In this document: positions 11,350 through 59,653 of the stretch, piece by piece | How positions within the stretch are numbered: the first letter of the stretch is position 1 | Layout of the letters: every line of letters starts with the position of its first letter | Source: Moraxellaceae bacterium | GTDB lineage: Bacteria; Pseudomonadota; Gammaproteobacteria; Burkholderiales; Rhodocyclaceae | Length of the DNA stretch: 62,554 nt | Direction: 5' to 3' | Assembly (NCBI GenBank): GCA_031119205.1 | Contig: JAVHYF010000027.1 | Span: 1-62,554, forward strand | Notes under the pieces: generated by a model | The model's database searches: none | The model's input: the letters and a program-made list of their open reading frames with translations, nothing else | What the model was told of the DNA's origin: nothing | Translations under genes and position numbers: made by a program

Positions 11350-12867
11350 TCAGAAGCCGATGATGTCCGCCTGCGTCACGTCACAGGTCGCCGTGCCCCA
11401 GCCGAGGCCCAGCTCGCTGCTCTTGCCGCTGCCCTTCTCGACGCCCTTGTACTCCATGCAGATCTCGGAGCCACCAGACGTCCAGCCCTTGATGCGCAGG
11501 TTGCGGATGGTCACCTTGTCACCGTAGTTACGGTTGGCGCCAGCGATCATGCCGGCGGAACCGTTGATGGTGGTGTTGGTGATGACCGCGTTACGGGGAC
11601 CGCCGTTGTTGGTGCAGTCACCACACGAACGCCACAGCTTGCCGATGCGGCCGTAGGTCTGGAAGCCGTCGATGTAGTAGGTGCTGTTCTTCGAGTTGTG
11701 CTGGAACACCTTGTCGTCGGCCGCGTTGGCCGATCCACCGACGATGGTCAGCGATACGCCGCTGTCCTTCAGCGTGGCAGCGTCTTCGCAGACGTCTTCC
11801 CACACGGCGTTCTCGATGCGGCAGTTACCCGCCACGCAGTGGATGCCGTCAGCTGCAGCCGCGTTGATGCGCACGTTCTTGATCGTCGCGTTGTTCAGCG
11901 TGATCACCGGCTGCTGGCTTTCGCTGCCACCGGAACAGGTCGTACCGATCGTCGCGCCACCGCAATCCACCGTCGCGTTCACCAGAACATTGCCCGCCTT
12001 GCACATCTCGGCGCCACCGGCCGTGCCATACACCTGGAACTCGGTGACGTTCGGCTTGCCGGCCTGCACTGCGGGGAAGTACACGCGGACCGCCGTCGTG
12101 CTGACCAGGGAGAAGTCGTGCGACTTGTTGGCACGGATGATGGTGCCGGACGACACGGTCTGCCAGGCGCCATTCACCAGCACCTGGATTTCGTGCGTGC
12201 TCGACGGCTCGCCGCTTTCGCTCAGCACCACGCGACCCAGTGAGCGGGCCGTTGCAAAGCTGACCTGCAGCCAGGTGCCCGCCACGTTGGTGGACGACGC
12301 CCAGCGCGTGGAGAAGTTGTTGTCGATGGCAAGTGCAGCCGGCTTGGTGGAGTCATCACCGCTGGAACTGGCCGTGCCTTGTGCCGCGATGTTGGTCAGT
12401 ACCGCACCGCCACTGCTGGTGCTGGAGCCGGTGCCACTGGACGAGGAGCTGCTGCTCGACGAACCCACGCCGGAAGAGCTGGAAGAGCTCGACGAGGAAG
12501 ACGAGGACGAACTGCTGCTCGACGAGCTGGAGGAGGAACTGGAAGAAGAACTGGACGAACTGCTGGACGAGGACGAGCCGCCCGAGCTGCTGGACGAGGA
12601 GCTGACCGGGCCGCTGGGCACCGAGCACTCATTGACGCCGCCGCCGATGCGACCACCGAAGGTCGCTTCGCTGCAGACGAAGCTGCCGGCGATCTGCTTG
12701 TAGAAGAACTGGTCAGCGCGGCCGAAGGCCACGTTGGTGGTGCTGGCGACCGAGCAGGTCTTGCCTTCCGAGCACAGGGTGACATAGCCCGCAGGGCGGT
12801 TGGCCGCCCAGACGCTGCTGGCGAGAGCCGCCGCCAGCACGCCTGCGACGAGGTGTTTCGATTGCAT
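11350..12867 (-). CDS. Secreted pectate lyase PL3 with four-Cys module, poly-Ser linker and F5/8-type (CBM32-like) domain
   Basis: A 505-residue pectate lyase that should cleave polygalacturonate by beta-elimination outside the cell, normally with Ca2+. The ATG at 12867 follows GGAGAC and starts a signal peptide ending VWA (residue 21). Residues 22-82 are a four-Cys module (GYVTLCSEGKTCSV, NVAFGRADQF). Residues 85-146 are a Ser linker. Residues 150-275 are a discoidin-like domain (DNNFSTRWASS, FQVYGT). Residues 285-505 are PL3: DGIHCVAGNCRIENAVWEDV, DKVFQHNSKNS, GKLWRSCGDC. It is the only one of the three tandem PL3s with the extra binding domain and the last gene of the island. Confidence 0.92.
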   Translation of the reverse strand: MQSKHLVAGVLAAALASSVWAANRPAGYVTLCSEGKTCSVASTTNVAFGRADQFFYKQIAGSFVCSEATFGGRIGGGVNECSVPSGPVSSSSSSSGGSSSSSSSSSSSSSSSSSSSSSSSSSSSSSSSSSSSGVGSSSSSSSSSGTGSSTSSGGAVLTNIAAQGTASSSGDDSTKPAALAIDNNFSTRWASSTNVAGTWLQVSFATARSLGRVVLSESGEPSSTHEIQVLVNGAWQTVSSGTIIRANKSHDFSLVSTTAVRVYFPAVQAGKPNVTEFQVYGTAGGAEMCKAGNVLVNATVDCGGATIGTTCSGGSESQQPVITLNNATIKNVRINAAAADGIHCVAGNCRIENAVWEDVCEDAATLKDSGVSLTIVGGSANAADDKVFQHNSKNSTYYIDGFQTYGRIGKLWRSCGDCTNNGGPRNAVITNTTINGSAGMIAGANRNYGDKVTIRNLRIKGWTSGGSEICMEYKGVEKGSGKSSELGLGWGTATCDVTQADIIGF

Positions 12868-12889
12868 GTTTTGTCTCCGTCTTGTTTTG

Positions 12890-12920
12890 AAAAGGGCCGA
12901 CATGCTGTGCATGCCGGCCC
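12890..12920 (-). terminator. Hairpin with T run between the first two PL3 genes
   Basis: Arms 12894-12905 and 12909-12920 pair with one mismatch around a 3-nt loop. On the minus strand the stem is followed by TTTTC. It could partly terminate or attenuate transcription between the 12948 and 11350 genes. Confidence 0.6.
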
Positions 12921-12947
12921 CTGTACTGCATCAGGTCACGGACGTGG

Positions 12948-14033
12948 TCAGAAGCGGATCACGTCGGACGGCGAGACATCGCAGTTCGCTGTGTTCCACT
13001 CCAGACCCACTTCGCTGCTGCCACCGCTGCCCTTCTCCACGCCGATGTGGGTCAGGCAGATCTCGCCATTGCCATCCGGGAAGTTGAAGTTCTTCATGCG
13101 CAGGTTGCGGATGGTGGCCTTGTCGCCGTAGTTCTTGTTGATGCCGGCAACGACGCCGTTCGAGCCATTCATCTGCACGTTGTTCACGTTCACGTAGCGC
13201 GGACCGCCGTTGGCCGTGCAGTCACCACACGAGCGGTACAGCTTGCCGATGCGGCCGAAGGTCTGGAAGTCCTGGATGTTGATCGTGCTGTTCTTGGAGT
13301 TGTGCTGGAACACCTTGTCATTGGCTTCGTTGGCCGAGCCGCCGACGATGGTCAGCGTGACGCCGGCATCCTTCAGCGTCGCAGCGTCTTCGCACACGTC
13401 TTCCCACACCACGTTCTCGATGCGGCAGTTGCCGGCCACGCAATGGATACCGTCAGCCGCGTTCTTGTTGATGCGAACGTTGCGGATGGTGCCATTGTTC
13501 AGCGTGAAGACCGGCAGCTGGCTTTCCGAACCGCCGTTGCAGGTGGTGCCCACCGTGATGCCGCCACAATCCACCGTCGTGTTGGTGATGACGCTACCCG
13601 CCACGCAGGAGTTGGGCGGTGCATTGCCACCCGACGAGCTGCTCGACGAGGAGGAGCTGGAAGAAGAGCTGGACGAGGAACTGGATGACGAGCTGGAGCT
13701 GCTGGAGGAGCTGCTGCTCGACGAACCCGTGCCCGACGACGAGCTGCTCGACGAGGAGCTGGAACTGCTCGACGACGTGCCGGAAGGCGCCGAGCACTCA
13801 TTCACACCGCCGCTCACGCGCGGGCCGAAGGTCGCTTCGTTGCAGGTGAAGCTGCCGGTGATGACCTTGTAGGTGAACTTGTCGGCGCGGCCGAAGGCGA
13901 CATTGGTAGCCGTCGCGACGGAACAGGTCTGGTTCTCCTTGCAGATGGTCACGTAGCCCGCCGGGCGGTTGGCGGCAGAAGCCAGGCCGGTTGCGGCCAG
14001 CAGTGCGCTGGCGATCAGCAGTTTTGCTTTCAT
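12948..14033 (-). CDS. Secreted pectate lyase PL3 with four-Cys module and poly-Ser linker
   Basis: A 361-residue exported lyase. The signal peptide ends LASA (residue 20). Residues 21-80 are the four-Cys module (GYVTICKENQTCSV, NVAFGRADKF, GSFTCNEATFG, GVNECS). Residues 83-133 are a Ser linker with one GTG break. Residues 138-361 are the PL3 catalytic domain: DGIHCVAGNC, VVWEDVCEDAATLKD, DKVFQHNSKNS, GKLYRSCGDC, and the RNLRMKNF strand. The ATG lies 10 nt after GGAG. It is closely related to its two neighbours, pointing to local duplication followed by divergence. Confidence 0.93.
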   Translation of the reverse strand: MKAKLLIASALLAATGLASAANRPAGYVTICKENQTCSVATATNVAFGRADKFTYKVITGSFTCNEATFGPRVSGGVNECSAPSGTSSSSSSSSSSSSSSGTGSSSSSSSSSSSSSSSSSSSSSSSSSSSSSSSGGNAPPNSCVAGSVITNTTVDCGGITVGTTCNGGSESQLPVFTLNNGTIRNVRINKNAADGIHCVAGNCRIENVVWEDVCEDAATLKDAGVTLTIVGGSANEANDKVFQHNSKNSTINIQDFQTFGRIGKLYRSCGDCTANGGPRYVNVNNVQMNGSNGVVAGINKNYGDKATIRNLRMKNFNFPDGNGEICLTHIGVEKGSGGSSEVGLEWNTANCDVSPSDVIRF

Positions 14034-14117
14034 TTGGTTTTGTCTCCGTTGGTTCTGGTTATGCCCGCACCGCCCGGAGGCGACGCGGGGTGTTTCATAC
14101 CTGGATCACAGTGACGA

Positions 14118-15227
14118 TCAGAAGGCCGTCACGTCACTCGGGCTGACATCGCAATACGCGGTGTTGAAGAACTCGCCGTACTTCTCGGTGGAGCCCTCAC
14201 CCTTCGAGACGCCACGCCACTCTTCGCAGATGCGCGGCTTGGTCGTCGTCGCGGTCGGACGGGTCAGGCCCTTGATCTTCAGGTTCCGGATCGTGGCCTT
14301 GTCGCCATAGTTGCGGTTCACGCCCACCACGGTGCTGCTGATGCTGCCGTTCACAGTCACGTTGTTGATGTTCACGTAACGCGGGCCGCCGTTGTTGGAG
14401 CAGTCGCCGCAGGAGCGGTACAGCTTGCCGACCTTGCCGTAGAGCTGGAAGTTCTCGATCACGAAGGTGCTGTTCTTGGCGTTGTGCTGGAACACCTTGT
14501 CCTGCGCTTCGGTCGCCGAACCGCCGGAAATCGTGAAGGTGACACCTGCATCCTTCAGCGTCGCCGCGTCTTCGCAGACGGCTTCCCACACCACGTTCTC
14601 GGCACGGCAGTTGCCGCTCACGCAGTGGATGCCGTCAGCCGCAGAGGCGTTGATGCGCAGGTTCTTCACCGTGCCGCCCGCCAGCGTCAGCACCGGCAGC
14701 TGACCTTCGCTGCCACCGCCGCAAGTGGTGCCCAGGGTCTTGCCGCCGCAGTCGACCACGCCAGTGATGGTGGCGCCGGCTTCGCAGACATTCACCAGGC
14801 CACCGCCCGAGGAGCTGCTCGACGAGGAGGACGAAGAAGACGAGCTGCTGGAAGAGGAAGAAGAGCTGGAACTGGAGGAGCTGCTGCTCGACGAGGAGCT
14901 GGACGAAGAGCTGGAACTGCTCGACGAGGAAGACGAAGAAGACGAGCTCGACGAACTGCTGGAAGAACTACCCGTGGGCACGGAACACTCGTTCACGCCG
15001 CCGGAAGTCTTGCCACCGAAGGTCGCTTCGTTGCAGACAAAGCTGCCGACGAGCACCTTGTAGAAGAACTTGTCGGCACGACCGAAAGCGACATTGGTCG
15101 AACTTGCCACGGAGCAGGTCTGACCTTCCTTGCAGATGGTCACGTAACCGCTGGGGCGGTTGGCCGCGAACACGGTGCTGGCCAGGGATGCGGCGACGAC
15201 GCTCGCCACCAGATACTTCATCTTCAT
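14118..15227 (-). CDS. Secreted pectate lyase PL3 with four-Cys module and long poly-Ser linker
   Basis: A 369-residue exported lyase. The ATG at 15227 follows AGGAGACACAGC and starts a signal peptide ending VFA (residue 21); the frame is open upstream to 15353 but without a signal sequence. The four-Cys module is at 22-82 (GYVTICKEGQTCSV, NVAFGRADKFFYK). A Ser linker of more than 50 residues is at 86-140. PL3 domain at 142-369: DGIHCVSGNCRAENVVWEAV, DKVFQHNAKNS, GKLYRSCGDC. At the usual WEDV position this copy has WEAV, replacing an Asp that is conserved in the other two; its activity or Ca2+ dependence may differ. Confidence 0.92.
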   Translation of the reverse strand: MKMKYLVASVVAASLASTVFAANRPSGYVTICKEGQTCSVASSTNVAFGRADKFFYKVLVGSFVCNEATFGGKTSGGVNECSVPTGSSSSSSSSSSSSSSSSSSSSSSSSSSSSSSSSSSSSSSSSSSSSSSSSSSSSSSGGGLVNVCEAGATITGVVDCGGKTLGTTCGGGSEGQLPVLTLAGGTVKNLRINASAADGIHCVSGNCRAENVVWEAVCEDAATLKDAGVTFTISGGSATEAQDKVFQHNAKNSTFVIENFQLYGKVGKLYRSCGDCSNNGGPRYVNINNVTVNGSISSTVVGVNRNYGDKATIRNLKIKGLTRPTATTTKPRICEEWRGVSKGEGSTEKYGEFFNTAYCDVSPSDVTAF

Positions 15228-15291
15228 GCTGTGTCTCCTGTTTATTGGTTTGTGCCACCGCCTGCTGCACGGAGGATGGCGCTCCGTCGAA

Positions 15292-15324
15292 GGGAGACGT
15301 GCAGGCCCAGACTGCACGTCTCCC
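15292..15324 (-). other. 13-bp perfect hairpin between CE8 and PL3 genes
   Basis: GGGAGACGTGCAG (15292-15304) and its exact complement (15312-15324) around a 7-nt loop, with no T tract. Probably a processing or stabilising element in the island transcript. Confidence 0.5.
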
Positions 15325-15407
15325 GTTGCTGCGACTTCAGGCAGCCACGTCACCGCCCATACGCACGGTGCCGTCGCCGCCTCGTTGCTTGCTGGCTGTG
15401 TGCCTGC

Positions 15408-16928
15408 TTATTGCGCGGCACCCGGCCCGGTGTTGCGGTACTCCGCCAGGTACGGGTTCTCGGCCGTACCCACCTGCACGGGGTTGCTGCTGCTCCAGTC
15501 AGACCAGGGCGGATCCTTGATCTCGCCACCGATGTAGGACTCGCGCACGATCATCTTGCCCAGCGTGCCGCCGTTGCTGGACGACTCCGGCCACTGGCGT
15601 GCGAAGGACACCGAGCGCTGACCTGCATCGACCGTGATCGTGCTGCGCGTGACGAGGAAGCCGTACGGATGCTGCGCGTTGGTGCTCGGCGCGCCGATCG
15701 TGCTGGTCTGCTTACGCACACGGGTGAAGTGGATGCGGCTGTTGTCGAACACCGCGACACCACGACCGAAGATGAAATCGGTATCACCCTCGACATAGGC
15801 ATCGTTGAAGTAGCTGCGCGAGATGACATCCAGCGACGGCGACTTCACATACAGCGTGTCCTGGTTGGCCAGCACGCGCACTTTGGTGAAGAGGGCGCGG
15901 TCACCTTCCAGCATCAGCGCAACGGCCTGCGTTTCGCCATTGGCGGACTCGTCCCAGCTGTTGATGAAGCTGAGGTTGGTCGCCTCGAAGTTGTTGGCCT
16001 TGATGACGGTGGTGGACGAACAGGTGGTGCCGATGCTGCCGGACTTGCTGGCGCAGGCGTCGTACACCGACTTGATGGCGGCCGGCGTGCTGCTGTTGTA
16101 CACCGCGCCACCCGGGTTCACCAATGCCGCGAACCGCGGGCCGGTCGTCTTGGCGCCCGTGCGATGGCCGATGACCACTTGCGTCGGATCGCTGCCACCA
16201 CCGTACAGCGTGATGGTGGTGCCCAGCGGCACGATGACCAGCTCTTCATAGTTACCCGGCTGCACCTTGATGTACTGGCGGGTCGTCACGCCACTGGCCG
16301 CCGCTGCGGTCACTGCAGCCTGCACGCTGGTATGCGTGCCACCACCGGTCTTGCTGACGGTGTAGTTCGGATTGGCGGGCATCTGCACGACGGTGCTACG
16401 CGGATCCCAGTTGTCCGTCACCAGCGAGCCCAGCGTGCCGCCCTTGGCGAGGAATTGCGGCACGTCGTAGCGTGCCGCCACGGTGTCGCTCAACTGGATG
16501 CGCTGTGCGCCACCGCCGTTGGACGAGGAGGATGACGAACTCGACGAAGAGCTGGAGCTGGACGAGCTCGAGGAACTCGAACTCGACGAACTGGACGACG
16601 AGCTTGAGGAAGAAGAGCTGGAGGAGGAGCTCGACGACGAACCCGTGCCCGAGCTGCTGGACGACGAGCCACTGCTACCCGGCGCCGAACACTCGTTGAC
16701 GCCGCCGGCGGTACGACCGCCGAAGGTTGCTTCGTTACACACGAAGCTGCCGGTCAGCTGCTTGTAGAAAAACTTGTCAGCGCGGCCGAAGGCCACGTTG
16801 GTCAGGGTTGAAACCGAGCACGTCTTGTTCTCGGAACAGATGGTCACGTAACCGGCTGGCCGGTTGGCTGCACTTGCGCTGCCGATCAGCGCGAGGGCAG
16901 CAAGGCCCCACACATACTTCGCCTGCAT
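15408..16928 (-). CDS. Secreted pectin methylesterase CE8 with four-Cys module and poly-Ser linker
   Basis: A 506-residue exported esterase that removes methyl groups from homogalacturonan, preparing it for the PL3 lyases next door. The signal peptide ends SASA (residue 20). The four-Cys module is at 21-80 (GYVTICSENKTCSV, NVAFGRADKFFYK). The Ser linker is at 83-135. The CE8 domain (about 140-506) shows KVQPGNYEE, GETQAVALMLEGD (conserved Gln), NQDTLYV and EGDTDFIFGRG with the catalytic Asp. The late LGRPW block is degenerate (SFARQWPES), as in some PemB-like esterases. It is the first long gene of the island; SD GGAGAC lies 9 nt upstream. Confidence 0.94.
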   Translation of the reverse strand: MQAKYVWGLAALALIGSASAANRPAGYVTICSENKTCSVSTLTNVAFGRADKFFYKQLTGSFVCNEATFGGRTAGGVNECSAPGSSGSSSSSSGTGSSSSSSSSSSSSSSSSSSSSSSSSSSSSSSSSSSSSSSSSNGGGAQRIQLSDTVAARYDVPQFLAKGGTLGSLVTDNWDPRSTVVQMPANPNYTVSKTGGGTHTSVQAAVTAAAASGVTTRQYIKVQPGNYEELVIVPLGTTITLYGGGSDPTQVVIGHRTGAKTTGPRFAALVNPGGAVYNSSTPAAIKSVYDACASKSGSIGTTCSSTTVIKANNFEATNLSFINSWDESANGETQAVALMLEGDRALFTKVRVLANQDTLYVKSPSLDVISRSYFNDAYVEGDTDFIFGRGVAVFDNSRIHFTRVRKQTSTIGAPSTNAQHPYGFLVTRSTITVDAGQRSVSFARQWPESSSNGGTLGKMIVRESYIGGEIKDPPWSDWSSSNPVQVGTAENPYLAEYRNTGPGAAQ

Positions 16929-17170
16929 GTCTCTTGTCTCCTTGATTCGGGTTGTGCGACGCGGATGCCGGAGGTCTTTGCCACCATGCTTTGGTCATCT
17001 CCGCGTCCGGGACTGCTGGCTCCGGTACGGTACTGCTCCATCCACGATGCGGATGGTCTGCTGCGCTCTGGAAGCCACCCGTTGCTCAAGCGGATGGCGG
17101 AAATCGGGGCACGATCACCTCACACGGCAATGCCCTCGCATGCCGGATGGATGCGTGCGCTGGACGTGCG

Positions 17171-17257: not shown

Positions 17258-17384
17258 GTTTGTCTCCTGCTCTTATAGGTATGACTGCTTGCTACATGCA
17301 CTGCCACGGCTGCCGTTGCGGCCGACATCATCGCAAATGCCCTCTGTGCGGGGCCTTCGGCGTGTGTAAGTTAGCACTTCCGCC

Positions 17385-17467: not shown

Positions 17468-17488
17468 GCAGGAAAGCTCGGCACAAAC

Positions 17489-17531: not shown

Positions 17532-19295
17532 TCAGGCGACAGCCTTGCCCGGCGCAGCATCCGCCACGTAACGGTGACGATTGACGATGCGCTTGTCGCG
17601 CGGGTGGGTACCCGGCACGGCAGAGATCAGCGCCTTGGTGTAAGGGTGCTCAGGCGTCGAGCAGATGAGGCCAGCCTCACCGGTTTCGACGATCTGACCC
17701 TTGTACATCACGGCCACGCGGTCACAGAAGTAACGGATCACGCCGATGTCGTGGCTGATGAGGATATAGGACAGGCCCAGCTTCTCCTGCAGATCCAGCA
17801 TCAGGTCGAGCACTTGCGAACGCAGCGTCACGTCCAGCGCCGAGGTCGCTTCGTCAGCGATGATCAGGCGCGGATTCAGTGCCAGCGAACGGGCGATGCC
17901 GATACGCTGACGCTGACCACCCGAGAAGGCGTGCGGATAACGTTCCATCGCAGCGGACGGAATGCCCACGGTTTCCAGCAGCTTGCCGACGCGCTCGCGC
18001 AGCTCCTTGCCGGACGCCAGACCGCTGACCAGCAGCGGCTCGCCAACGATCTGACCGATCGTCATGCGCGGGTTCAGCGAGGCGAACGGATCCTGGAACA
18101 CCATGCGGATCTCGCGGTGCACCTGGCGCAGCTCGCTCTTGCCGGCCTTGGCCAGATCGGAGATGTTGCCGTTGCTCTTCTTGAACAGGATCTCGCCCGA
18201 GGTCGGTTCCAGCACGCGGATCAGGCAGTTGCCCATCGTCGTCTTGCCGGAGCCCGACTCACCCACGATACCCAGGTTCTCGCCCTCGTACAGATCGAGC
18301 GAGACGTTGTCCAGCGCCTTGAACGGATCGCTGGCCTTACCCAGGAAGCTCTTGCGCGACGGGTAGATCTTGGAGACGTTGCGGACTTCCAGCAGCTTCT
18401 TGTCGGTGATGGTGGACTTGCGCGCCTTGCGGGCGGAAGTCTCCAGCTTGCGCACCGAGTCGATCAGCTCCTTGGTGTAGTCGTGCTGCGCCGTGTAGAA
18501 GATCTGCTCGGCCGGTCCGAACTCCAGCATCTTGCCGTTCTTCATCACGCCGATCTCGTCGGCGATCTCGGCCACCACGCCCATGTCGTGGGTGATGAAC
18601 AGCACGGACATGCCGTAGGCCTGCTGCAGTTCCTTGATCAGCGCCAGGATTTCGGCCTGGGTGGTCACGTCCAGCGCAGTGGTCGGCTCGTCGGCGATCA
18701 GGATCTTCGGGTTGCAAGCCAGCGCCATGGCGATCATGGCGCGCTGACGCATACCGCCCGAGTACTCGAACGTGTACTTGTCGATGGCCACCGCCGGGTT
18801 CGGGATTTCCACGCGACGCAGCAGCTCGATGGAGCGTGCGCGCGCTTCTTCCTTGTCGACGTTCTGGTGCAGCAGGATGGCTTCGGAGATCTGGCTACCG
18901 ATCGTGTGGATCGGTGACAGCGAGGTCATCGGCTCCTGGAAGATCATCGCGATCTCGTGGCCACGGATGCTGCGGATCTGCTTGCTGCGCGGATGCAGTT
19001 GCGCCAGGTCGAGCGGCTGACCGCTCTTCACCTGTTGGTCGCCCCAGTACAGGATCTCGCCACCGTAGATCTTGCCCGGGTAGTCGACGATCTGCAGGAT
19101 CGAGCGAGCGGTCACGGACTTGCCGGAACCGGACTCACCCACGATACAGAGCGTCTTGCCACGCTGCAGCTTGAAGCTGATGTCGTCGACTGCGCGGACC
19201 GCCTTGTCGTCATCGCCGAAGTGCGTCTTCAGGTTGCGGACATCAAGAATGACGTCGCCAGCACCGCGGGAGTTGGTATTCACGTTATCTGCCAT
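17532..19295 (-). CDS. ABC transporter ATPase with two nucleotide-binding domains (OppDF/YejF type)
   Basis: A 587-residue cytosolic protein powering the importer encoded upstream, with two fused ABC ATPases. Domain 1 has Walker [12 protein letters not shown] (about residue 55), signature YSGGMRQR and Walker [13 protein letters not shown]. Domain 2 has Walker [13 protein letters not shown] (about 348), signature FSGGQRQR and Walker [13 protein letters not shown]. Each domain ends with the oligopeptide-type extension ([13 protein letters not shown] in the second). It follows the permease gene by 12 bp. The fused layout matches YejF and GsiA, so the operon needs no separate OppD and OppF. Confidence 0.95.
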
Positions 19296-19307
19296 GTCAG
19301 TACCACA

Positions 19308-20438
19308 TCAATGCGAGTAGGGGTCAGCGGCGTCGCGCAGGCCGTCACCCATGAAGTTCAGGGACAGCACCGCAAGCACCACGCAAGCGCCAGGAATGAA
19401 GAGCCACGGGGCCGAAGCAATCGAACGGATGTTCTGCGCTTCCTTCAGCAGCACGCCCCAGCTGATGGACGGCGGCTGCAGACCCAGGCCGAGGAAGGAC
19501 AGCGAGGTCTCGGACAGGATCATGAAGGGCACCGCGAGCGTCACGGCAGCGATGATGTGACTGGCCAGCGAAGGCAGCATGTGGCGGAAGATCACGCGAC
19601 TCTCGCTGCAGCCATCCAGCTTGGCGGCGATCACGAACACTTCACCACGCATGGCCAGGAAGCGGCCACGCACGACACGCGCCAGCTCGGTCCAGCCAAT
19701 CAGCGAAATCACCACCGTGATGCCCAAGTACTGCAGATGCGGCGGCCAGTTCTTCGGCAGCGCGGCAGCCAGGGCCAGCCAGATGGGGATGGTCGGCAGC
19801 GAGATGATGTATTCCACGACACGCATCACGACCCAGTCGATCTTGCCGCCGTAGTAGCCGGACATACCACCGAGGCTGATGCCCAGCAGCACGCTGATGC
19901 ACACACCGACCAGACCCAGCGACATCGTGAAGCGCCCACCGTAGATGGTGCGTGACAGCACGTCACGACCCATGCGGTCAGCGCCAAAGATGAAGAAGCG
20001 CTCGTTGGGATCCTTCGGGCCGATCAGGTGCACATCGGTTTCGATCAGGCCCAGCAGCTTGTACTTGTGACCACGCGCGAAGAGGGTCAGGTCCGTCTTG
20101 CGGCCGTCATCCTCGACGAAGACCGGCTTCAGCGTGTTCGGATCACGTTCCAGGCGATAGCCGGTGACGTGGAAGCGGAAGCCATCCTTGTCGAAGAGGT
20201 GGATGGATTGCGGCGGATGGTAGGTCAGGCGCGAATTGGCTTCTTCCGGATCGAACGGCGCGAAGAATTCGGCAAACAGCGCGATCAGGTAGAACAGCGC
20301 CACTACCACCATGCCCGCGACTGCCAGCTTGTGCTTGCGGAAGCGGTGCCACATCAGGGTCCATTGCGAGGCGTATTCGATACCGCCGCGCAGATTGGCC
20401 ATATTGACCGGAGCGGTCGTTGCAGGAGTTTGACTCAT
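19308..20438 (-). CDS. ABC transporter permease, OppC/DppC family with enlarged periplasmic loop
   Basis: A 376-residue inner-membrane permease. After the first membrane segment (VAGMVVVALFYLIALFAEFF, about residues 40-60) there is an insertion of roughly 90 residues before GADRMGRDVLSRTIYGGR, as in the longer OppC relatives that include oligosaccharide-type importers. The EAA cytoplasmic loop is at AAKLDGCSESRVIFRHMLPS, and the last segments include the conserved ISWGVLL. Its ATG lies 2 nt after the OppB-type stop, so the pair is coupled. Confidence 0.93.
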   Translation of the reverse strand: MSQTPATTAPVNMANLRGGIEYASQWTLMWHRFRKHKLAVAGMVVVALFYLIALFAEFFAPFDPEEANSRLTYHPPQSIHLFDKDGFRFHVTGYRLERDPNTLKPVFVEDDGRKTDLTLFARGHKYKLLGLIETDVHLIGPKDPNERFFIFGADRMGRDVLSRTIYGGRFTMSLGLVGVCISVLLGISLGGMSGYYGGKIDWVVMRVVEYIISLPTIPIWLALAAALPKNWPPHLQYLGITVVISLIGWTELARVVRGRFLAMRGEVFVIAAKLDGCSESRVIFRHMLPSLASHIIAAVTLAVPFMILSETSLSFLGLGLQPPSISWGVLLKEAQNIRSIASAPWLFIPGACVVLAVLSLNFMGDGLRDAADPYSH

Positions 20439-20440
20439 TG

Positions 20441-21424
20441 TTATTGCACCCGGATACGCGGATCAAGAACCACAAGGAGGATGTCGGAGAGCAGCGTACC
20501 GATGACGGTCATCAGACACAGCAACAACAGGAAGGCACCCGAGAGGTAGATGTCCTGCGACAACAGGGATTGCATCAGCATCGGACCGGCGATCGGCATG
20601 TTCAGCACGATCGACACGATCACGGCACCCGACACCAGACGCGGCACGGTCCAGCCGAGCGTGCTGACGAAGGGGTTCAGCGCGATGCGCACCGGGTACT
20701 TCAGCAGCAGCTTGGTTTCGGTCAGGCCCTTGGCACGTGCGGTCACGACGTACGGCATGTGCAGCTGGTCGATCAGGTTGGCGCGCATGATGCGGATCAG
20801 CGAAGCCGATGCCTCGGTACCGAGGATGATCACCGGAATCCACATGTGAGCCAGCAGATCCTTGACGCGGCCCCAGGACCACGGCGCGTTCGCGTATTCA
20901 GGCGAGAACAGGCCGGTCACGTCCGCGTTGAACATCTTGACGCTCATGTACATCAGGATCAGCGCGATCAGGAAGCCAGGCACGGCCAGGCTGACGAACG
21001 CGATGAACGTAAAGGAGTAGTCCAGCAGGGAGTAGCGGCGCACGGCGGAGTAGATACCGACCGGCAGCGCGATACACCAGGACAGGATAAGGGTCGAAAC
21101 AGTGACGACGAGGGTCAGGCCCATACGCTCGCCAAGCAGGGTGACAACCGGCGCATTCCACTCGAAGGAGTAGCCGAAGTCACCACGAACCACACCACCG
21201 ATCCACGCGAAGTACTGGACGATCAGGGGTTGGTCGAGGCCGAAGCGACGGCGCATCTCTTCCATCATCGCAGGGGTCACTTCTTCACCGGCCGCAGCAG
21301 CTTGAGCCGCCCAGCTGGTCACGAAGTCGCCCGGCGGCAACTGGATGAGCACGAACACAGTGAGCGACACCAGGAACATGAACGGTATCGCCGAAAGTAA
21401 GCGCTTGAAGATGTAATTAAGCAC
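20441..21424 (-). CDS. ABC transporter permease, OppB/DppB family
   Basis: A 327-residue inner-membrane permease. The GTG at 21424 is chosen because it yields the typical start MLNYIFKRLLSAIPFMFLVSLTVF; an ATG at 21487 in the same frame adds 21 residues that overlap the intergenic hairpin and have no family match. Six membrane segments are visible. The EAA loop is at RAKGLTETKLLLKYPVRIALNP and the end is DPRIRVQ. The Shine-Dalgarno is weak. It partners the OppC-type permease immediately downstream. Confidence 0.92.
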   Translation of the reverse strand: MLNYIFKRLLSAIPFMFLVSLTVFVLIQLPPGDFVTSWAAQAAAAGEEVTPAMMEEMRRRFGLDQPLIVQYFAWIGGVVRGDFGYSFEWNAPVVTLLGERMGLTLVVTVSTLILSWCIALPVGIYSAVRRYSLLDYSFTFIAFVSLAVPGFLIALILMYMSVKMFNADVTGLFSPEYANAPWSWGRVKDLLAHMWIPVIILGTEASASLIRIMRANLIDQLHMPYVVTARAKGLTETKLLLKYPVRIALNPFVSTLGWTVPRLVSGAVIVSIVLNMPIAGPMLMQSLLSQDIYLSGAFLLLLCLMTVIGTLLSDILLVVLDPRIRVQ

Positions 21425-21472
21425 GGGAGCAGCTCTCGTCGTAAGGAAAACCTGGGGAGCGAGGTTCCCCCT

Positions 21473-21490
21473 GGGGTGCCGTAGCACCCC
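21473..21490 (-). other. Intergenic hairpin between binding protein and permease genes
   Basis: GGGGTGC/GCACCCC around CGTA, without a T tract, 32 nt past the binding-protein stop. Hairpins here commonly stabilise binding-protein mRNA and lower permease expression. Confidence 0.5.
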
Positions 21491-21521
21491 GGAGGGACTC
21501 TTCTTCTATTCTTGAATCAGC

Positions 21522-23444
21522 TTAGCGATACGACCATTGCTGCAGCAGGGCCGGACCCGGGGTCGGGTACGTCCAGCCAGACGGCATCTTGTCGTAGACG
21601 TTGATCAGCTTGTTGTTCACCACACCGGTTTCGTACGCGGGGCGCACGGTACCGATCACTTCGAAGGCTTCGGCGGCTTCAGCCAGAATTTCCTTGAAGG
21701 TAGCGTCGGCTTGCGCCTGGCTGCTGGCCTTCTGCCACTTTTCGAACAGGTCGAAGCGCTTCTTCATGCTGGCGCTCGGCTCTTCGCCTTGCTTGCCATC
21801 GGTGGCCCACCAACGCTGCCACAGCAGGCTCTGACGCGACTCTTGCGGGTGTTGCGACAGGTAAGCACGCGGGTTGAACGGAGCGTCCATGCCGCCAGGC
21901 GCATTGTCGACCGAGATGTCGTACTCGTTACGAGCAGCGCGATCGTAGAACAGGGTGCGCTCGGAGCTCTGGATCACCATGTCGATACCGGCCTTGGCCC
22001 ACTGACGACGGATCAGTTCCAGACCTTCGATGTGGTGCGAGTTGGCGATCGAAGCGATGACGTTGATCGAGACACGGCCACCAGTCGGATACAGACGGAA
22101 GCCGTCGTTATCCTTCTTGTTCAGGCCCAGGGTGTCCAGCATCTCGTTGGCCTTCTTCAGGTCATACTGGATGAACTGGGTACCGAGCTTCTCGTTGTAC
22201 CACTTGGATTGCTTCAGCGGACCGACTTGCCACGGAGCGCCCTGGCCCAGGAAGACGATGTCGTTGATTTCCTTGCGGTCGGTCGCCAGCGACAGAGCAA
22301 TACGGAAGTCTTTCTTGCGGATCTGCTCACGCAGCTTCGCGTTCGGCGAGGTCTGGTTCACATACATGGCCAGCGAGCTGGCGTTGATGTTCGGCAGACT
22401 CACCAGGCGATAGCCACCCTTTGCGGCGTTCTCGGCCAGCACCGGACGGTTCTGGATGTTCGAGATGTGACGCAGCTGCCAGTCGAGCGAACCGTTGATC
22501 GAGTTCAGCACGATGGTTTCCACTTCCGAGATCACCGACAGCTGGACGGTGTCGATGTAAGGCAGTTGCTTGCCTTCCTTGTCGACTTGCCAGAAGTACG
22601 GGTTGCGCTTCAGCACCACGCGGGTGGACGAACCGCTGTACGGCTCGGACACGATCCACGGATCCAGCGTCGGACGGTTCGGCATGCTGAAACGAGTAGC
22701 GCCAGCCGGCGGCTCGATATCGGCACATTCGCGACGGAACAGATCGGACCAGCCCTTCAGCTTGGCGTCAGCAACGGCCTTGCTCACGTCCGAGTTGTAC
22801 TTCGGGTGGAACTTCTGGCAGTAGTTCTTCGACCACAGGGTCGGGTGCTGCAGCACCGGGGTTGCCAGTTGCTCGATGAAGCCGACATAGGGGCCATCGA
22901 ACTTGAACTTGACGGTCTCGTTGTCGACCTTGGTGACCGCAACATACTTGTTGTTGATCACATAGGCCGGCGGCGGGCTCGACAGGAATTCCTTGTTGCC
23001 GACCACGTCGTTCATGCTGAACACAACGTCATCTGCGGTGAAGGGGGAACCATCCGACCACTTCATGCCCTTGCGCAGCTTGAAGGTGTACTCGCTGCCG
23101 TCCGGGGACAGGGTCCAGCTTTCAGCGACGTTCGGCTCGACCTTGTTGAAGTCCATCGACCAGCGCACCAGGCCTTGGTTGCCGACAACGCGCAGGATTG
23201 CATTCTGGTCACCGTTACCACGCAGCGCATTGCGCAGCGTGCCGCCATACTTGCCGCTACGCTCCAGCGGGGTGATGACTTGCGGTTTCTCGGGCAGGCG
23301 CTGCGCAACGGGCGGCAGCTTTTTCTCTTTTACCAGAGCAGCCAGCTCGGGCGCTTCGGAGAAGGTCTGGGCCATGGCGGGCATTGCCACCACGCCGGCA
23401 GAAGCCAACGCCAGAGCGAACTTCAGAGAGGTCTTGTTCCTCAT
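21522..23444 (-). CDS. Periplasmic solute-binding protein, SBP_bac_5 (Opp/Dpp) family
   Basis: A 640-residue exported binding protein. The signal peptide ends AMA (residue 25). It has family 5 landmarks: YGGTLRNALRGN near residue 65, then NVAESWTLSPDGSEYTFKLR and GMKWSDGSPFTADDVVF, and later ALSLATDRKEIND. It is longer than OppA or DppA and resembles the larger family members, some of which bind oligosaccharides. It is the first gene of the importer operon, with AGGAGG before the ATG and a promoter-like region with direct repeats 70-100 bp upstream. The substrate is not readable from sequence; oligopeptides are the default, pectic oligosaccharides a context-based guess. Confidence 0.93.
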   Translation of the reverse strand: MRNKTSLKFALALASAGVVAMPAMAQTFSEAPELAALVKEKKLPPVAQRLPEKPQVITPLERSGKYGGTLRNALRGNGDQNAILRVVGNQGLVRWSMDFNKVEPNVAESWTLSPDGSEYTFKLRKGMKWSDGSPFTADDVVFSMNDVVGNKEFLSSPPPAYVINNKYVAVTKVDNETVKFKFDGPYVGFIEQLATPVLQHPTLWSKNYCQKFHPKYNSDVSKAVADAKLKGWSDLFRRECADIEPPAGATRFSMPNRPTLDPWIVSEPYSGSSTRVVLKRNPYFWQVDKEGKQLPYIDTVQLSVISEVETIVLNSINGSLDWQLRHISNIQNRPVLAENAAKGGYRLVSLPNINASSLAMYVNQTSPNAKLREQIRKKDFRIALSLATDRKEINDIVFLGQGAPWQVGPLKQSKWYNEKLGTQFIQYDLKKANEMLDTLGLNKKDNDGFRLYPTGGRVSINVIASIANSHHIEGLELIRRQWAKAGIDMVIQSSERTLFYDRAARNEYDISVDNAPGGMDAPFNPRAYLSQHPQESRQSLLWQRWWATDGKQGEEPSASMKKRFDLFEKWQKASSQAQADATFKEILAEAAEAFEVIGTVRPAYETGVVNNKLINVYDKMPSGWTYPTPGPALLQQWSYR

Positions 23445-54741: not shown

Positions 54742-54817
54742 GGTGCTTCCTCGCAGATGATCGACACCCGGACCGTCATCGGCCCGGACGTGGGAAGCGC
54801 GCATTGTAGCGGCTGCA

Positions 54818-54851
54818 CATGACAAGGGCCGCGCGTGCGGCCCTTGTCATG
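54818..54851 (-). terminator. 15-bp perfect hairpin after the GH53 gene
   Basis: CATGACAAGGGCCGC and its complement (54837-54851) around GCGT, 22 bp past the GH53 stop and upstream of argJ. There is no T tract, so termination strength is uncertain. Confidence 0.6.
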
Positions 54852-54873
54852 TCCTCGACTGTTCACCGTCAGC

Positions 54874-56277
54874 TCATTGCTGATAGGCGCACTTGTTGGG
54901 ATTGCCGCCAGGATCGCTACCGAATGCCGAGACGGTACAGGCGATGCTGCTGCCCACGCCGACGTACTTCGCCACCCACTTGCCCTTGCGACCGAAGGCC
55001 ACCCAGCCCGTTCCCTTGCTGACGTTGCAGGTGCCGCCGAGTTCGGCGCACTTGCTGAAGCCGCTGGGGTAATCACCCGTGCCGCCCAGCACCGGCGCGC
55101 CGCCCGAGGAGCTGCTCGACGAGGAGGACGAAGAAGAGGAGGACGACGTGGAGCTCGACGAGCTGGAACTGGAAGAGCTGCTGGAAGAACTCGACGACGA
55201 ACTGCTCGACGATGAGCTGGAGGACGAACTCGAAGAAGAGCTTGATGACGACGAGGAGGACGAAGAAGAGGATGAGCCTTCCAGGAAGGCATCCATCGCC
55301 ACCGACGGCCGTCCGTTGTCCTGCCAGGCCGCCTTGCCGTAGCCCTTCCACATGCCGTAGGCCTGCGGCTCCCAGTAGAAGACGCCCAGCGCGCCAGCCG
55401 AACGCGCCTTGCTCAGGATGTCCTGGATGAAGGCACGGCTGGTCGTCGCGGCAGCGGCTTCCATGCCAATCTCCACGATCATCACGTCCTTGCCGTAGCG
55501 CGACTTCATGTCACGCATGTTGGACAACGCCTGGCTGTTCAACGTCGGCCAGTCGCTGGTCGTCGGGTACAGCGACATGCCGATGACGTCCCAGCGCGCG
55601 CCGTTGTTCTTCAGGCCGTCGAACATCCAGCGGAACAGCGAATTGTCGTAAGCGTTCGACAGGTGCACGATGACCTTGGCGTTCGGGAACACTTCCTTGG
55701 TGGCGTCGTAACCGCTATTCACCAGCCACGCGAAGTTGCGCATGTTGGCCGACGCCCTGCCCTGCTCCCACAGCATGCCGTTGTTGGTTTCGTTGCCGAC
55801 CTGCACCCACTCCGGCGTGATGCCGTTGGACTTCAGCGTGTTCAGCACGTCACGCGTGTGGCTCCACACATCGTTCATGAGCTGCTCGAAGGAGTGGCTG
55901 CTCCACGCCGCAGGCTTGTTCTGCTGGCCCGGATCCGCCCAGGAATCGCTGTAGTGGAAGTCGATCATGATGCGCAGCCCTGCGGCCTTCGCGCGCTTGG
56001 CCTTCGCCACCACATCGTTCACGCCGTTCCAGCCGCCTTGTGGATTGACCCACACGCGCAGGCGCACGGCGTTGACGCCGTGGTCCTTCAGTATCTGCAG
56101 TACGTCCTGCTGCGAGCCGCCGTCGCTGTAGAAGCGCGTACCGGCTGCTTCCTGCTCGGTGATCCAGCTCACGTCCGCGCCCTTGGCGAACTGTGCGGCC
56201 GCTTCACCGCTCAGCAAGCCGAAGCTCAGCCCCAGGCAGGCGGTGGCACGCAAAGCCTGCGAAAGAAATCGATTCAT
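54874..56277 (-). CDS. Secreted GH53 arabinogalactan endo-beta-1,4-galactanase with poly-Ser linker and C-terminal four-Cys module
   Basis: A 467-residue exported galactanase predicted to cut beta-1,4-galactan side chains of rhamnogalacturonan I. The signal peptide ends EAAA (residue 28). GH53 domain at about 30-330: GADVSWITEQEAAG, VRLRVWVNPQGG and FHYSDSWADPGQQ. The acid/base Glu is in WVQVGNETNNGML and the nucleophile Glu in VMIVEIGME. A Ser linker at about 334-392 joins the C-terminal four-Cys module (DYPSGFSKCAELGGTCNV, WVAFGRKGKW, NKCAYQQ). The module order is inverted compared with the pectin-backbone enzymes. ATG follows AGGAGACAGGAC. Confidence 0.94.
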   Translation of the reverse strand: MNRFLSQALRATACLGLSFGLLSGEAAAQFAKGADVSWITEQEAAGTRFYSDGGSQQDVLQILKDHGVNAVRLRVWVNPQGGWNGVNDVVAKAKRAKAAGLRIMIDFHYSDSWADPGQQNKPAAWSSHSFEQLMNDVWSHTRDVLNTLKSNGITPEWVQVGNETNNGMLWEQGRASANMRNFAWLVNSGYDATKEVFPNAKVIVHLSNAYDNSLFRWMFDGLKNNGARWDVIGMSLYPTTSDWPTLNSQALSNMRDMKSRYGKDVMIVEIGMEAAAATTSRAFIQDILSKARSAGALGVFYWEPQAYGMWKGYGKAAWQDNGRPSVAMDAFLEGSSSSSSSSSSSSSSSSSSSSSSSSSSSSSSSSSSSSSSSSSSTSSSSSSSSSSSSSSGGAPVLGGTGDYPSGFSKCAELGGTCNVSKGTGWVAFGRKGKWVAKYVGVGSSIACTVSAFGSDPGGNPNKCAYQQ

Positions 56278-56356
56278 GTCCTGTCTCCTTGTCCGTGCTT
56301 GTACTGGCGTGCTTCATCGCAGTTCTCCGCTGGAAACACTGCACGTCACGCTCAAC

Positions 56357-56386
56357 GCACTCGGGCCGCATGTGCGGCCCGAGTGC
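56357..56386 (-). other. GC-rich hairpin between GH53 and GH43 genes
   Basis: GCACTCGGGCCGC (56357-56369) and its exact complement with a 4-nt loop, without a T tract. Of the same kind as the other hairpins in these islands. Confidence 0.5.
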
Positions 56387-56414
56387 TTCTATCAAAGGTC
56401 GTTCAGACGCCGGC

Positions 56415-57746
56415 TCAGTACGTCGGCCAGCCTGACGAGTCCCACTTCAGGTCGTTGATCAGCATCTTCGGCGCACCGTTGGCGGTCGCGTCGTAGGCGT
56501 GGCGGATGATGACGTTGCTGCCGTCCACGTCCTGGCCGCCCGGGCCGACCCACTGCGCGTTGCCGGAATCGAACACCGTACCGCCACCGTCGAGCATGCT
56601 CTTGCCGCTCTTGTCCTTGTAGGGACCGGTGATGCTGGTGGAGCGGCCGACGACGATCTTGTAGGTGCTGTCCACGCCGGCACAACAACGGTCGATCGAT
56701 GCGAACAGGTAGTAATAGCCGTTCCGATAGGTGATGGCCGGCGCTTCGATGCCATTGCTGCGCTTGGCGATCGACGTGGTGGAGCCGGTCGGCTTCATGG
56801 TGCTCTTGTCGATCTTCACGATCTTCAAGCCGCTCCAGAACGAGCCATAGGCCAGGTACGGATTGCCGCTGCTGTCGAAGGTCAGATGCGGATCGATGGC
56901 GTTGTAGTCGTTGGAGCTCGTGCTACGCAGCACCATGCCGTCGTCGCGCCATGCGCCACCGCTGATCGTCGGGGCGGACACGAGGCCGATGGCCGAAGTG
57001 TTCTGGCCGAAAGTGGAGATCGAGTAGTACAGCCACACGCGCCCGTTGTAGATCTGCACGTCCGGCGCCCATACGTCGAGGCCGCTGTGTGCCGGCACAT
57101 AGGTGCCCCACCAGCTCGGGCGCTGCAGGAAGATCTGCGGCGTGGCGCCCCAGTTGCGGCCGTTGTCGTTGGAGTAACGCACCTGGATGCCGGGGCCGGT
57201 CTGGAACACCCACCAGGTGTTGCCTTCCTTGGTGATGGTCGGATCGTGCGAACCGATCTCGCCTTGCGCGCCCCAGAAGCCAGCGCCCTGTCCACCGCCG
57301 GTGCTCGACGAGCTGGAGCTGGACGACGAACTGCTGCTCGACGAAGAACTGGAGCTGGAGCTCGAAGACGAGGAAGACGACGAGCTCGACGAAGAACTCG
57401 ATGAGCTGGACGAAGAGCTGGAAGAGGAGCTCGACGAGCTGGACGACGAACTGCTCGAGGAACTGCCGCCCGACGAGGACGTCGTCGTGTTGGCGTAGGA
57501 ACACCAGGCCGAGGTGGTGAAGCTGTTGCTCGGAAAGTTGCTGCCCGAGCACACCACACTGTTGGTGAAGGTGGCGTACACGAAGCTGCCGGACTTGCCG
57601 AGCGCGACCGAACGCGTGCCGCTGAAAGAGCAGGTTGCGCCGGTGTTCTGCACGCACTTGGTGTAGCCCGACGGATAGTCGGTCGCCGCCTGGGCGCCCA
57701 GGCTGAGCAGGCCGACGCTGAGGCCGGCCAGTAGTTTGCGGATCAT
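56415..57746 (-). CDS. Secreted GH43 endo-1,5-alpha-L-arabinanase with four-Cys module and poly-Ser linker
   Basis: A 443-residue exported enzyme expected to cut the arabinan backbone. ATG 57746 follows GGAGGAGACACC; an in-frame extension to 57854 lacks a signal sequence. The signal peptide ends GAQA (residue 20). The four-Cys module is at 21-85 (DYPSGYTKCVQNTGATCSF, SVALGKSGSFVYATF), the Ser linker at about 89-146. GH43 five-blade features: GEIGSHDPTITKEG (base Asp), SSNDYNAIDPHLTFD (Asp), GIEAPAITYRNGYYYLF (acid Glu) and the APDV block. The overall pattern matches subfamilies 4-6 endo-arabinanases. Confidence 0.92.
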   Translation of the reverse strand: MIRKLLAGLSVGLLSLGAQAATDYPSGYTKCVQNTGATCSFSGTRSVALGKSGSFVYATFTNSVVCSGSNFPSNSFTTSAWCSYANTTTSSSGGSSSSSSSSSSSSSSSSSSSSSSSSSSSSSSSSSSSSSSSSSSSSSSSSSSSSSSTGGGQGAGFWGAQGEIGSHDPTITKEGNTWWVFQTGPGIQVRYSNDNGRNWGATPQIFLQRPSWWGTYVPAHSGLDVWAPDVQIYNGRVWLYYSISTFGQNTSAIGLVSAPTISGGAWRDDGMVLRSTSSNDYNAIDPHLTFDSSGNPYLAYGSFWSGLKIVKIDKSTMKPTGSTTSIAKRSNGIEAPAITYRNGYYYLFASIDRCCAGVDSTYKIVVGRSTSITGPYKDKSGKSMLDGGGTVFDSGNAQWVGPGGQDVDGSNVIIRHAYDATANGAPKMLINDLKWDSSGWPTY

Positions 57747-57836
57747 GGTGTCTCCTCCGGGAATATCGTTGTTGTGCTGCTTTATCGGTACTGCGGTGCC
57801 GCGCTTTCTGCATCTGTGTGCAGCGCTTCCTGCACG

Positions 57837-57866
57837 CGACACGGCGGCTGCCACGCCGTCGTGTCG
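57837..57866 (-). other. Hairpin between the two GH43 genes
   Basis: CGACACGGCGGC (57837-57848) pairs with 57855-57866 through one G-U pair. No T tract. Confidence 0.45.
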
Positions 57867-57886
57867 GTCCTGCTGTTCCTTCAGGC

Positions 57887-59653
57887 TTACTCCACGATGC
57901 GGAAGGTCGCGTCCTGGCGGTCCGTATCGTTCGCCACCGGCTCCAGCTTCAGCGAGAACGCTGCGTGCCGGATGTAGCGATCACTGTAGTTGTACGACTG
58001 GAACGACGATGCACCATTGTTCGCCAGCCCTGGCACCACTCTGAAGGTGGCGTCCTGTCTGAAGTTATCGCTGCCGTCGTGCTTCACAAGCTGGAAATCG
58101 AAGCCGACGTGACGCAGGTAGTAGCCCGGCGCATTCACCGACTCGAAGGACACGTAGCCAGGCCCGGTGTTCGCCAGACCCGGCACGATCTTCCAGCGCG
58201 AATCCAGCGCCGGCGTCACGTTCGGGTCCAGCAGCACGTCGAAGTTGCTGTGCCGCACGTACCGGTCGCTGAAGTTGTTCGACTGCAGACGACGGCTGAT
58301 GCCGTGCACGCCGGTGGACGTCTGCGGTGCCGGCTGGATCGTGCCATCCGAGTTATAGGACAGTTTGTCGACCGCCACCGAACGACGGTAGTCGCCCCCG
58401 GTAGGCAGCGCCGCCGTGTGGTAGATGATGAAGCTCTGCCCGTTCAGCTCCACGATGGCCTGGTGGTTGGTACCCACGTTGAAGTTCGGCGTCTGGATGA
58501 TGCCGCGGTAGGTCCACGGACCGCTCGGGCTCGACGCCGTGGCGTAGGCGATGTTCTCCGGGAAGTTGTACGCGTAGGACAGGTAATAGGTGCTGCCCCG
58601 CTGGTGCACGAAAGGCGCCTCGGTGAACCAGTCCAGGTTGATGCGCTGGATGCTACCGTTCAGCTCGGTCATGTTGCTCTTGAGCTTGACGTACTTCAGC
58701 ACGGTGTTGCCCCACCACATGTGCACCGAGCCATCCGAATCCACCAGCACGGCCGGGTCGATGTCGTCCCACCAGATGTCGGTATGGGTGGTCATGTCGT
58801 TGGTGATGATGGCCGAGCCCTTGGCGTCCACGAAGGGGCCGGTGGGGCTGTCGGAGACCGCCACACCGATGGCCATGCCGGACTTGGTCTTGTGCTCCAC
58901 CGTCACGTACCACCAGTACTTGTTGTCCTTCTTGACGACGTGACTGGCCCAGGCGCGGCCCTTCGCCCAGCTGAAGGTACTGACGTTCATCGGCGAACCA
59001 TGATCGGTCCAGGTCTTCATGTCGGCCGACGAATAGACGCGCCACTGGTTCATCACGTAATCGGTGCCACCCACGGCAGCCTCATCCACGCCGACATAGA
59101 CGTAGACCCGACCGTTGTCGACGATCGCCGACGGGTCGGCGGTAAAGCGGTTCGTGACGACGGGGTTGCCGTACTGGCTGAGGTAGGACGTGCCGCCAGA
59201 CGAGGAACTGGAGGAGGAGCTCGAAGAGCTTGAAGAGCTGCTGCTCGATGAGGAAGAAGACGAGGATGACGACGAAGACGACGAACTCGTACTCGACGAT
59301 GAGCTGGATGAAGAGCCGGAAGAGGAACTGGAGCTCGACGACGAGCTTGACGTCGAACTGCTCGACGAGCTGCCACCCGAGGACGAGGTGGCGGTGTTGG
59401 CGTAGGAACACCAGGCCGACGTGGTGAAACCGTTGCTCGGGAAGTTGCCGCCCGAGCACACCACGCTGTTGGTGAACGTGGCGTAGACGAAGCTGCCGGA
59501 CTTGCCGAGCGCCACCGAGCGCGTGCCACTGAAGGTGCATGTCGCGCCGGTGTTCTGCACGCACTTGGTGTAACCGGAGGGGTAGTCCGTGGCGGCGAGC
59601 GCAGAACTCACCGCCAGGCTCGCCACGAGGGCAGCCAGGGTCTGACGCATCAT
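57887..59653 (-). CDS. Secreted GH43 arabinan-degrading enzyme with four-Cys module, poly-Ser linker and CBM42 (AbfB) domain
   Basis: A 588-residue exported enzyme, probably an arabinofuranosidase or exo-arabinanase. ATG 59653 (the first of two adjacent ATGs) follows GGAGACAAC. The signal peptide ends SALA (residue 20). The four-Cys module at 21-85 is nearly identical to that of the neighbouring GH43 enzyme. The Ser linker is at about 89-151. GH43 domain at about 155-445: TADPSAIVDNGRVYVYVG (base Asp), DDIDPAVLVDSDG and WFTEAPFVHQRGSTYYL (acid Glu). Residues 447-588 form an AbfB/CBM42 beta-trefoil with three repeats (DRYVRHSNFDVLL, GYYLRHVGFDFQL, DRYIRHAAFSLKL; each ending in a DATFRVV-like strand), an arabinofuranose-binding fold. 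Confidence 0.92.
   Translation of the reverse strand: MMRQTLAALVASLAVSSALAATDYPSGYTKCVQNTGATCTFSGTRSVALGKSGSFVYATFTNSVVCSGGNFPSNGFTTSAWCSYANTATSSSGGSSSSSSTSSSSSSSSSSSGSSSSSSSSTSSSSSSSSSSSSSSSSSSSSSSSSSSSSSSGGTSYLSQYGNPVVTNRFTADPSAIVDNGRVYVYVGVDEAAVGGTDYVMNQWRVYSSADMKTWTDHGSPMNVSTFSWAKGRAWASHVVKKDNKYWWYVTVEHKTKSGMAIGVAVSDSPTGPFVDAKGSAIITNDMTTHTDIWWDDIDPAVLVDSDGSVHMWWGNTVLKYVKLKSNMTELNGSIQRINLDWFTEAPFVHQRGSTYYLSYAYNFPENIAYATASSPSGPWTYRGIIQTPNFNVGTNHQAIVELNGQSFIIYHTAALPTGGDYRRSVAVDKLSYNSDGTIQPAPQTSTGVHGISRRLQSNNFSDRYVRHSNFDVLLDPNVTPALDSRWKIVPGLANTGPGYVSFESVNAPGYYLRHVGFDFQLVKHDGSDNFRQDATFRVVPGLANNGASSFQSYNYSDRYIRHAAFSLKLEPVANDTDRQDATFRIVE

Follow-up and report, generated by a model that had tools for sequence, protein, structure and literature searches.

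In Cellvibrio, the cellulose-binding carbohydrate-binding modules (CBMs) CBM2 and CBM10 are carried by poly-Ser-linked enzymes. A second point of reference is the rhamnose-binding lectin (RBL, SUEL-type) domain of PF02140, as seen in CSL3 and latrophilin-1 (LPHN1), a fold of about 95 residues that is best known from animals, has eight cysteines paired 1-3, 2-8, 4-7 and 5-6, and contacts its monosaccharide through Glu, Tyr, Asn, Asp and Lys in CSL3 and through Glu, Tyr and Lys in LPHN1; a PF02140-type domain also occurs on a plant beta-galactosidase (5iaz). Longer bacterial PF02140 domains already appear as a clade of a tree in one study (PMC6712302). Here we describe a module of about 65 residues with four cysteines, present in seven copies on secreted pectin-degrading enzymes within a stretch of 62,554 nucleotides (hereafter the window) of contig JAVHYF010000027.1 from the Moraxellaceae bacterium assembly GCA_031119205.1. 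Like the Cellvibrio modules, it is a single exchangeable module joined through Ser linkers to many wall enzymes of various substrates; no sequence relation to them was found. A genome-wide search for CBM2 gave only two matches in the same genome, one with an internal stop. On balance, we favor the view that the module is a short bacterial relative of the RBL domain that acts as an exchangeable targeting module in its genus. The seven copies, between positions 11350 and 59653, are as follows:

12610..12804, minus strand: ANRP-variant module, N-terminal, on a PL3 pectate lyase and F5/8C protein (11350-12912)
13779..13973, minus strand: ANRP-variant module, N-terminal, on a PL3 pectate lyase (12948-14033)
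14970..15164, minus strand: ANRP-variant module, N-terminal, on a PL3 pectate lyase (14118-15353)
16674..16868, minus strand: ANRP-variant module, N-terminal, on a CE8 pectinesterase (15408-16928)
54877..55083, minus strand: C-terminal-variant module on a GH53 protein (54874-56277); structure predicted, pLDDT 86.3
57486..57686, minus strand: DYPSGY-variant module, N-terminal, on a GH43 endo-arabinanase (56415-57854; AbnA model above cut-off)
59393..59593, minus strand: DYPSGY-variant module, N-terminal, on a GH43 and AbfB protein (57887-59791)

The enzyme types are backed by Pfam matches, and the CAZy names are those that we take to belong to these Pfam families. As the original prediction from this DNA had it, all seven segments are present, homologous and alignable, and the proposed core V-A-(F/L)-G-(K/R) is reflected in the invariant columns of their alignment, which include V-A-x-G together with Cys 2, 3 and 4; Cys1 occurs in all seven segments, its position varying by one or two residues from variant to variant. 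The three variants likewise fall where they had been placed: ANRP (ANRP-[AS]-GYVT, immediately after the signal-like peptide) on CE8 and the three PL3 enzymes, DYPSGY (motif DYPSGYTKCVQNTGATC, N-terminal) on the two GH43 enzymes, and a C-terminal variant (GDYPSGFSKC) on GH53. In a module tree of 141 rows and 66 columns (one fragment excluded; 74 of 138 inner branches open), the ANRP, DYPSGY and C-terminal variants each occupy one side of a branch, with support of 93, 89 and 95, respectively. The label of the last variant demanded a position in the C-terminal half, so that the count of 20/20 C-terminal placements is partly by construction; its appearance as a single branch of 19 rows is not. 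Among the genus modules, 95 of 98, a fragment included, have four cysteines, and one has five, the extra cysteine lying upstream. Two ANRP modules (L008:1264-2790 and L016:1898-3169) have lost both Cys1 and Cys2 and kept Cys3 and Cys4, a joint loss that suggests Cys1-Cys2 and Cys3-Cys4 bonds. At another locus, two adjoining frames (L045:1091-2014 and L045:1975-3393) bear an ANRP-like module and what seems to be a divergent second copy containing an insert; Pfam shows no enzyme domain in the first of these frames.

No named family was known to the original prediction, and none emerged from Pfam, NCBIfam or PDB sequences. The seven isolated modules had no Pfam-A match at E<=10, and thus none to the CBM families in Pfam, and 56 modules searched at E<=10 drew nine weak families with no CBM and no PF02140 among them. 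The weak NCBIfam rows obtained with whole window proteins cover enzymes or Ser-rich stretches. The seven-row profile had no match among PDB sequences, and neither profiles A1 and A2 nor one two-module distant sequence retrieved anything there at E<=10. One 60-residue query found no match in phage records, and no paper was recognized as treating this module in a literature search mostly without subscription journals. The module is real, genus-wide and absent from Pfam and NCBIfam as scanned. As expected of a CBM in the CAZy sense, it is discrete, non-catalytic and joined to carbohydrate-active enzymes.

In 4.63 Mb on 90 contigs, the genome of the window has 43 clear copies (E<=4.1e-22); a 44th row, with an E value of 0.27, falls inside a frame that already contains another copy. 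A further 60 genomes were selected as relatives; all seven congeners in this set have the module, with 5, 17, 9, 3, 3, 4 and 14 matches, and two of the remaining 53 matched weakly. The same profile matched 3 of 368 other genomes in a class-wide sample and 9 of 397 in a phylum-wide sample, and a distant-relative profile, A3, which contained two mistyped rows, matched 13 of the latter 397. None of the other genomes in the three samples had more than six matches, at most 14 to 16 candidates having been scored per genome in these wide searches. The expansion of the module thus looks like a trait of the genus, strongest in the species of the window. The same genome has 20 matches to the PL1 pectate lyase family (PF00544) in 4.6 Mb.

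Beyond the genus, where the original prediction had suspected similar stretches, relatives were indeed found. They share the pattern W-x2-C-A-x-E-x3-C-x-F-x-G-T-x2-V-x-Y-G ... C-x-N-x2-F-G-D-P-x-P-[GN]-x2-K-x-C and occur on S8 proteases, hemopexin repeats, beta-helix, fn3 and DUF1996 proteins, and stand-alone secreted proteins. A scan of genome contigs for this distant family confirmed 249 stretches, the best 80 of which (79 loci) are mostly from Burkholderiales, such as Massilia, Noviherbaspirillum and Paraburkholderia, and further come from Streptomyces, Paenibacillus, Cohnella, Chloroflexota, Gemmatimonadota and Geobacter relatives. These loci contain 96 module-bearing frames (95 distinct), 69 of them with two to four modules, and four cysteines are present in 202 of 204 distant modules. 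In 70 distant proteins, the partners at Pfam E<=0.001 include, among the best 25 of 48 families, GH18 (7), S8 (6), alpha-L-rhamnosidase (5), GH16 (4), M4 (2) and galactose-oxidase-like (2) domains. In several small secreted-looking proteins (L073, L151, L086-L088), modules, two or three per protein, are all that we recognize. The module was also found by tblastn in three plasmid records (Cupriavidus, Glaciecola and Deinococcus) and in 21 stretches of viral contigs. A profile built from 75 non-genus relatives matched 97 of 98 genus modules at E<1e-3 and none of 980 cysteine-preserving shuffles (best shuffle E value, 0.0093); when the genus variants were each aligned to the distant family with hhalign, the probabilities were 97-99. 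By these sequence comparisons, the similarity is beyond chance, and the genus module belongs with its distant relatives in one homologous, wider and unnamed bacterial family.

The RBL link surfaced only with the distant-family profiles and the fold. RBLs rank at the top both by sequence and by the fold predicted for the GH53 C-terminal-variant module, with a modest Z score and a short sequence match. In the prediction, the strand order and the short helix following the fourth RBL strand are shared with CSL3 and the latrophilin-1 RBL, as are tandem repeats and secretion, and the distant relatives add an N-x4-D-x3-G-x2-K loop and the Glu and Tyr contacts. All five CSL3-type contacts recur in 21 of 25 distant modules, some of them near-copies, and in 146 of 198, where the scan pattern imposes Asn and Asp in matched copies. 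In contrast to RBLs, the module is some 30 residues shorter, has four cysteines that probably form two disulfides, and lacks loop1 and the long helix; the distant relatives inspected lack the Arg of YGR and the Cys of DPC, and the genus variants lack the sugar-contact set. Because a global hhalign of module against RBL left the YG motifs unpaired, the N-terminal equivalence rests on the range of the fold alignment and our own reading. PF02140 itself had no match in the genome of the window at E<=10, and over 299 genomes it matched at E<=0.01 in four and above its cut-off in one; the latter (L226:1351-1830) is a frame of 160 residues that has a hydrophobic stretch at its N-terminus and in which SWG replaces YGR. 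The modest Z score, the short match and the differing length and cysteine number could mean that a small beta domain whose FGDP loop arose by chance has come to resemble RBLs by convergence. We regard this as rather unlikely, given that RBLs come out on top by two routes, that contact residues recur at equivalent places, and that the missing Arg and Cys are those tying the RBL loop1, which the module does not have. An RBL-like fold is supported, as is a monosaccharide site of RBL type in the distant relatives, though neither is proved.

Another reading is that the module serves folding, stability or secretion (type II export, for instance) and binds no ligand. Such a role would fit the position of the ANRP and DYPSGY modules, which by a simple rule stand directly behind a signal-like peptide in 77 of 78 cases (the 78th merely has no Met in the inspected stretch, its frame being open far upstream). 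It is hard to reconcile with the C-terminal position of the third variant, with the module-only proteins (L073 and L151), and with the distant relatives conserving residues that match a lectin site, and we consider it improbable.

Within the genus, the site has been altered. The five lectin contacts are complete in none of 96 countable modules (one a fragment). The ANRP variant (n=41) keeps the Glu in 40, has Phe for Tyr in 35, and in all 41 lacks DP and has Asn for Lys; the DYPSGY variant (n=35) lacks DP throughout and has Ala for Lys in 29; the C-terminal variant (n=20) keeps DP in 16, has Asn for Lys in 16 and Lys in two, and has Phe at the aromatic position (VAFG) in 19. In latrophilin, changes of Glu42 or Lys120 reduced or abolished rhamnose binding, so that with this contact set lost, plain rhamnose or galactose binding is not expected, and the ligand of the genus modules is probably no longer either sugar. 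The mean net charge is +1.8 for ANRP, +1.9 for DYPSGY and +4.7 for the C-terminal variant, as against +0.2 for 75 distant modules. Anionic pectate is a candidate ligand with which this positive charge would be compatible, without constituting proof. A precedent is the CBM BT0996-C, whose binding of polygalacturonate is charge-based and whose sugar-binding fold has lost its usual signatures and presents a basic pectate-binding surface instead (PMC9843283); with its CBM6/35-type fold and Ca, it is a parallel rather than a shown relative of the module.

Partner enzymes were classed by Pfam and NCBIfam for the copies of the window's genome; in the congeners (55 copies), similarity to the former served, supplemented by Pfam for nine; the partner name at L035 rests on a score under that model's cut-off. 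In the window's genome, the 25 ANRP modules are on PL3 (10), PL1 (8) and one each of CE8, PL9, PelZ-like, GDSL/pectin-acetylesterase-like, Svx-like and SdiA-regulated proteins, with no partner for one; the 14 DYPSGY modules are on PL3 (6), PL1 (3), GH43 (2), CE8, PL11 and GH12 (one each); and the four C-terminal modules are on PL1 (3) and GH53 (1). Over all 98 modules of eight genomes, ANRP (43) is found on PL3 (20), PL1 (10), CE8 (3) and others (10); DYPSGY (35) on PL3 (14), PL1 (6), PL9 (5), PL11 (3), GH43 (2), CE8 (2), GH12 (1), PL10 (1) and a cut protein (1); and the C-terminal variant (20) on PL1 (15), GH5 (2), GH53 (1), astacin (1) and a fragment (1). The Svx/AvrXca-family protein with an ANRP module is L049:1321-3684, with a counterpart by similarity in one congener (L214:383-2941). 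Three congeners have secreted-looking proteins of about 600 residues (L178, L199 and L221) that bear an ANRP module and in which Pfam matched nothing at E<=0.001.

These counts bear on the proposal that the variants are CBMs, each fitted to the polymer that its own enzyme attacks (homogalacturonan, arabinan or galactan), which the seven window enzymes had seemed to show. Side-chain or hemicellulose enzymes carry 0/36 ANRP, 6/34 DYPSGY and 3/18 C-terminal modules, and ANRP and DYPSGY differ in this respect with a Fisher p of 0.010, for paralogues that are not independent, with 10 of 98 modules of unclassable partner left out and the acetylesterase-like protein counted as homogalacturonan-directed; a weak trend of ANRP avoiding non-homogalacturonan carbohydrate enzymes remains. 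In a 34-row tree of PL3 catalytic parts, built by a quick method, the variants are also clustered, with six changes, at least five forced by strong branches, against a shuffled mean of 11 and as few in 0-1 of 500 shuffles. However, homogalacturonan enzymes bear 10 of 14 DYPSGY and three of four C-terminal modules in the window's genome, and GH12, GH5 and an astacin protease bear these variants too. In genome G003 (89% complete, 3% contaminated), three PL3 enzymes encoded on two contigs have catalytic parts 94-96% identical and bear either ANRP (L213) or DYPSGY (L218, two copies), modules with 40-45% identity over 51-58 residues; the GC content of the L213 stretch is 0.593, and that of seven other stretches of this genome is 0.55-0.577. 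Similarly, a PL9 enzyme bears ANRP in the window's genome and DYPSGY in five congeners, with catalytic parts 70-80% identical. Such switches on near-identical or related enzymes mean that the substrate rule fails: it had appeared because seven modules were too few to show otherwise. We therefore rejected substrate-matched variants on the partner counts, the PL3 tree and the switched enzymes, and hold them to be very improbable.

Several partners raise the alternative that the module fixes enzymes to the surface or exopolysaccharide of the producing bacterium itself rather than to the substrate. The occurrence of distant relatives on proteases (S8 and M4), on hemopexin repeats and in stand-alone secreted proteins would accord with this, as would the genus copies on astacin, Svx-like and SdiA-regulated proteins. 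Most classed genus partners are, however, plant-wall enzymes, and a copy number ranging from 3 to 43 across congeners would not be expected of a general anchor; we judge this alternative unlikely. The module is most likely a targeting module. Of the original proposal of a carbohydrate-binding or wall-anchoring module, the non-catalytic and plausibly glycan-binding character stands, and the grouping of variants by substrate does not. The modules are homologous, have expanded, and have exchanged variants between closely related enzymes; glycan binding, with pectin as the ligand, is what we infer. Tethered exchangeably via Ser-rich linkers to secreted plant-cell-wall enzymes, the module would bind glycan and hold them on the pectin-rich wall, sitting on a wall polymer while the linker frees the catalytic part to work. 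The variant seems to set where an enzyme is located rather than what it cuts, which fits the exchange of variants between near-identical enzymes. More tentatively, a minimal four-cysteine RBL family may have been remade in one genus, its ancestral rhamnose/galactose pocket dismantled in three ways to give three new pectin-wall specificities that were shuffled among dozens of enzymes regardless of their substrates.

Elsewhere in the window, a secreted poly-Ser protein (867-3434, plus strand) ends in a CBM96 (DNRLRE) domain, the sole PF24517 match of the genome; no four-cysteine module was found in it, and Pfam matches nothing in its N-terminal part. The PL3/CE8 cluster is adjoined by an Opp/Gsi-type ABC importer (17532-23444, minus strand) with a fused ATPase, two permeases and a binding protein. 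The binding protein and permeases score under the curated cut-offs of every model listed, and the ATPase passes several (dipeptide, nickel and staphylopine) where the scores of its two domains sum; import of pectic oligosaccharides is a guess.

The lectin link is well worth testing. If true, it would allow a domain that spans Proteobacteria to Streptomyces, Paenibacillus, Chloroflexota and Gemmatimonadota to be named and would supply a mechanism of sugar binding that can be tested for it, and would add a short four-cysteine form to the animal-typified lectin fold. It would also provide candidate binding modules for pectin probes and, in the natural pairs of one enzyme with different modules, a means of asking what the module does for the enzyme.

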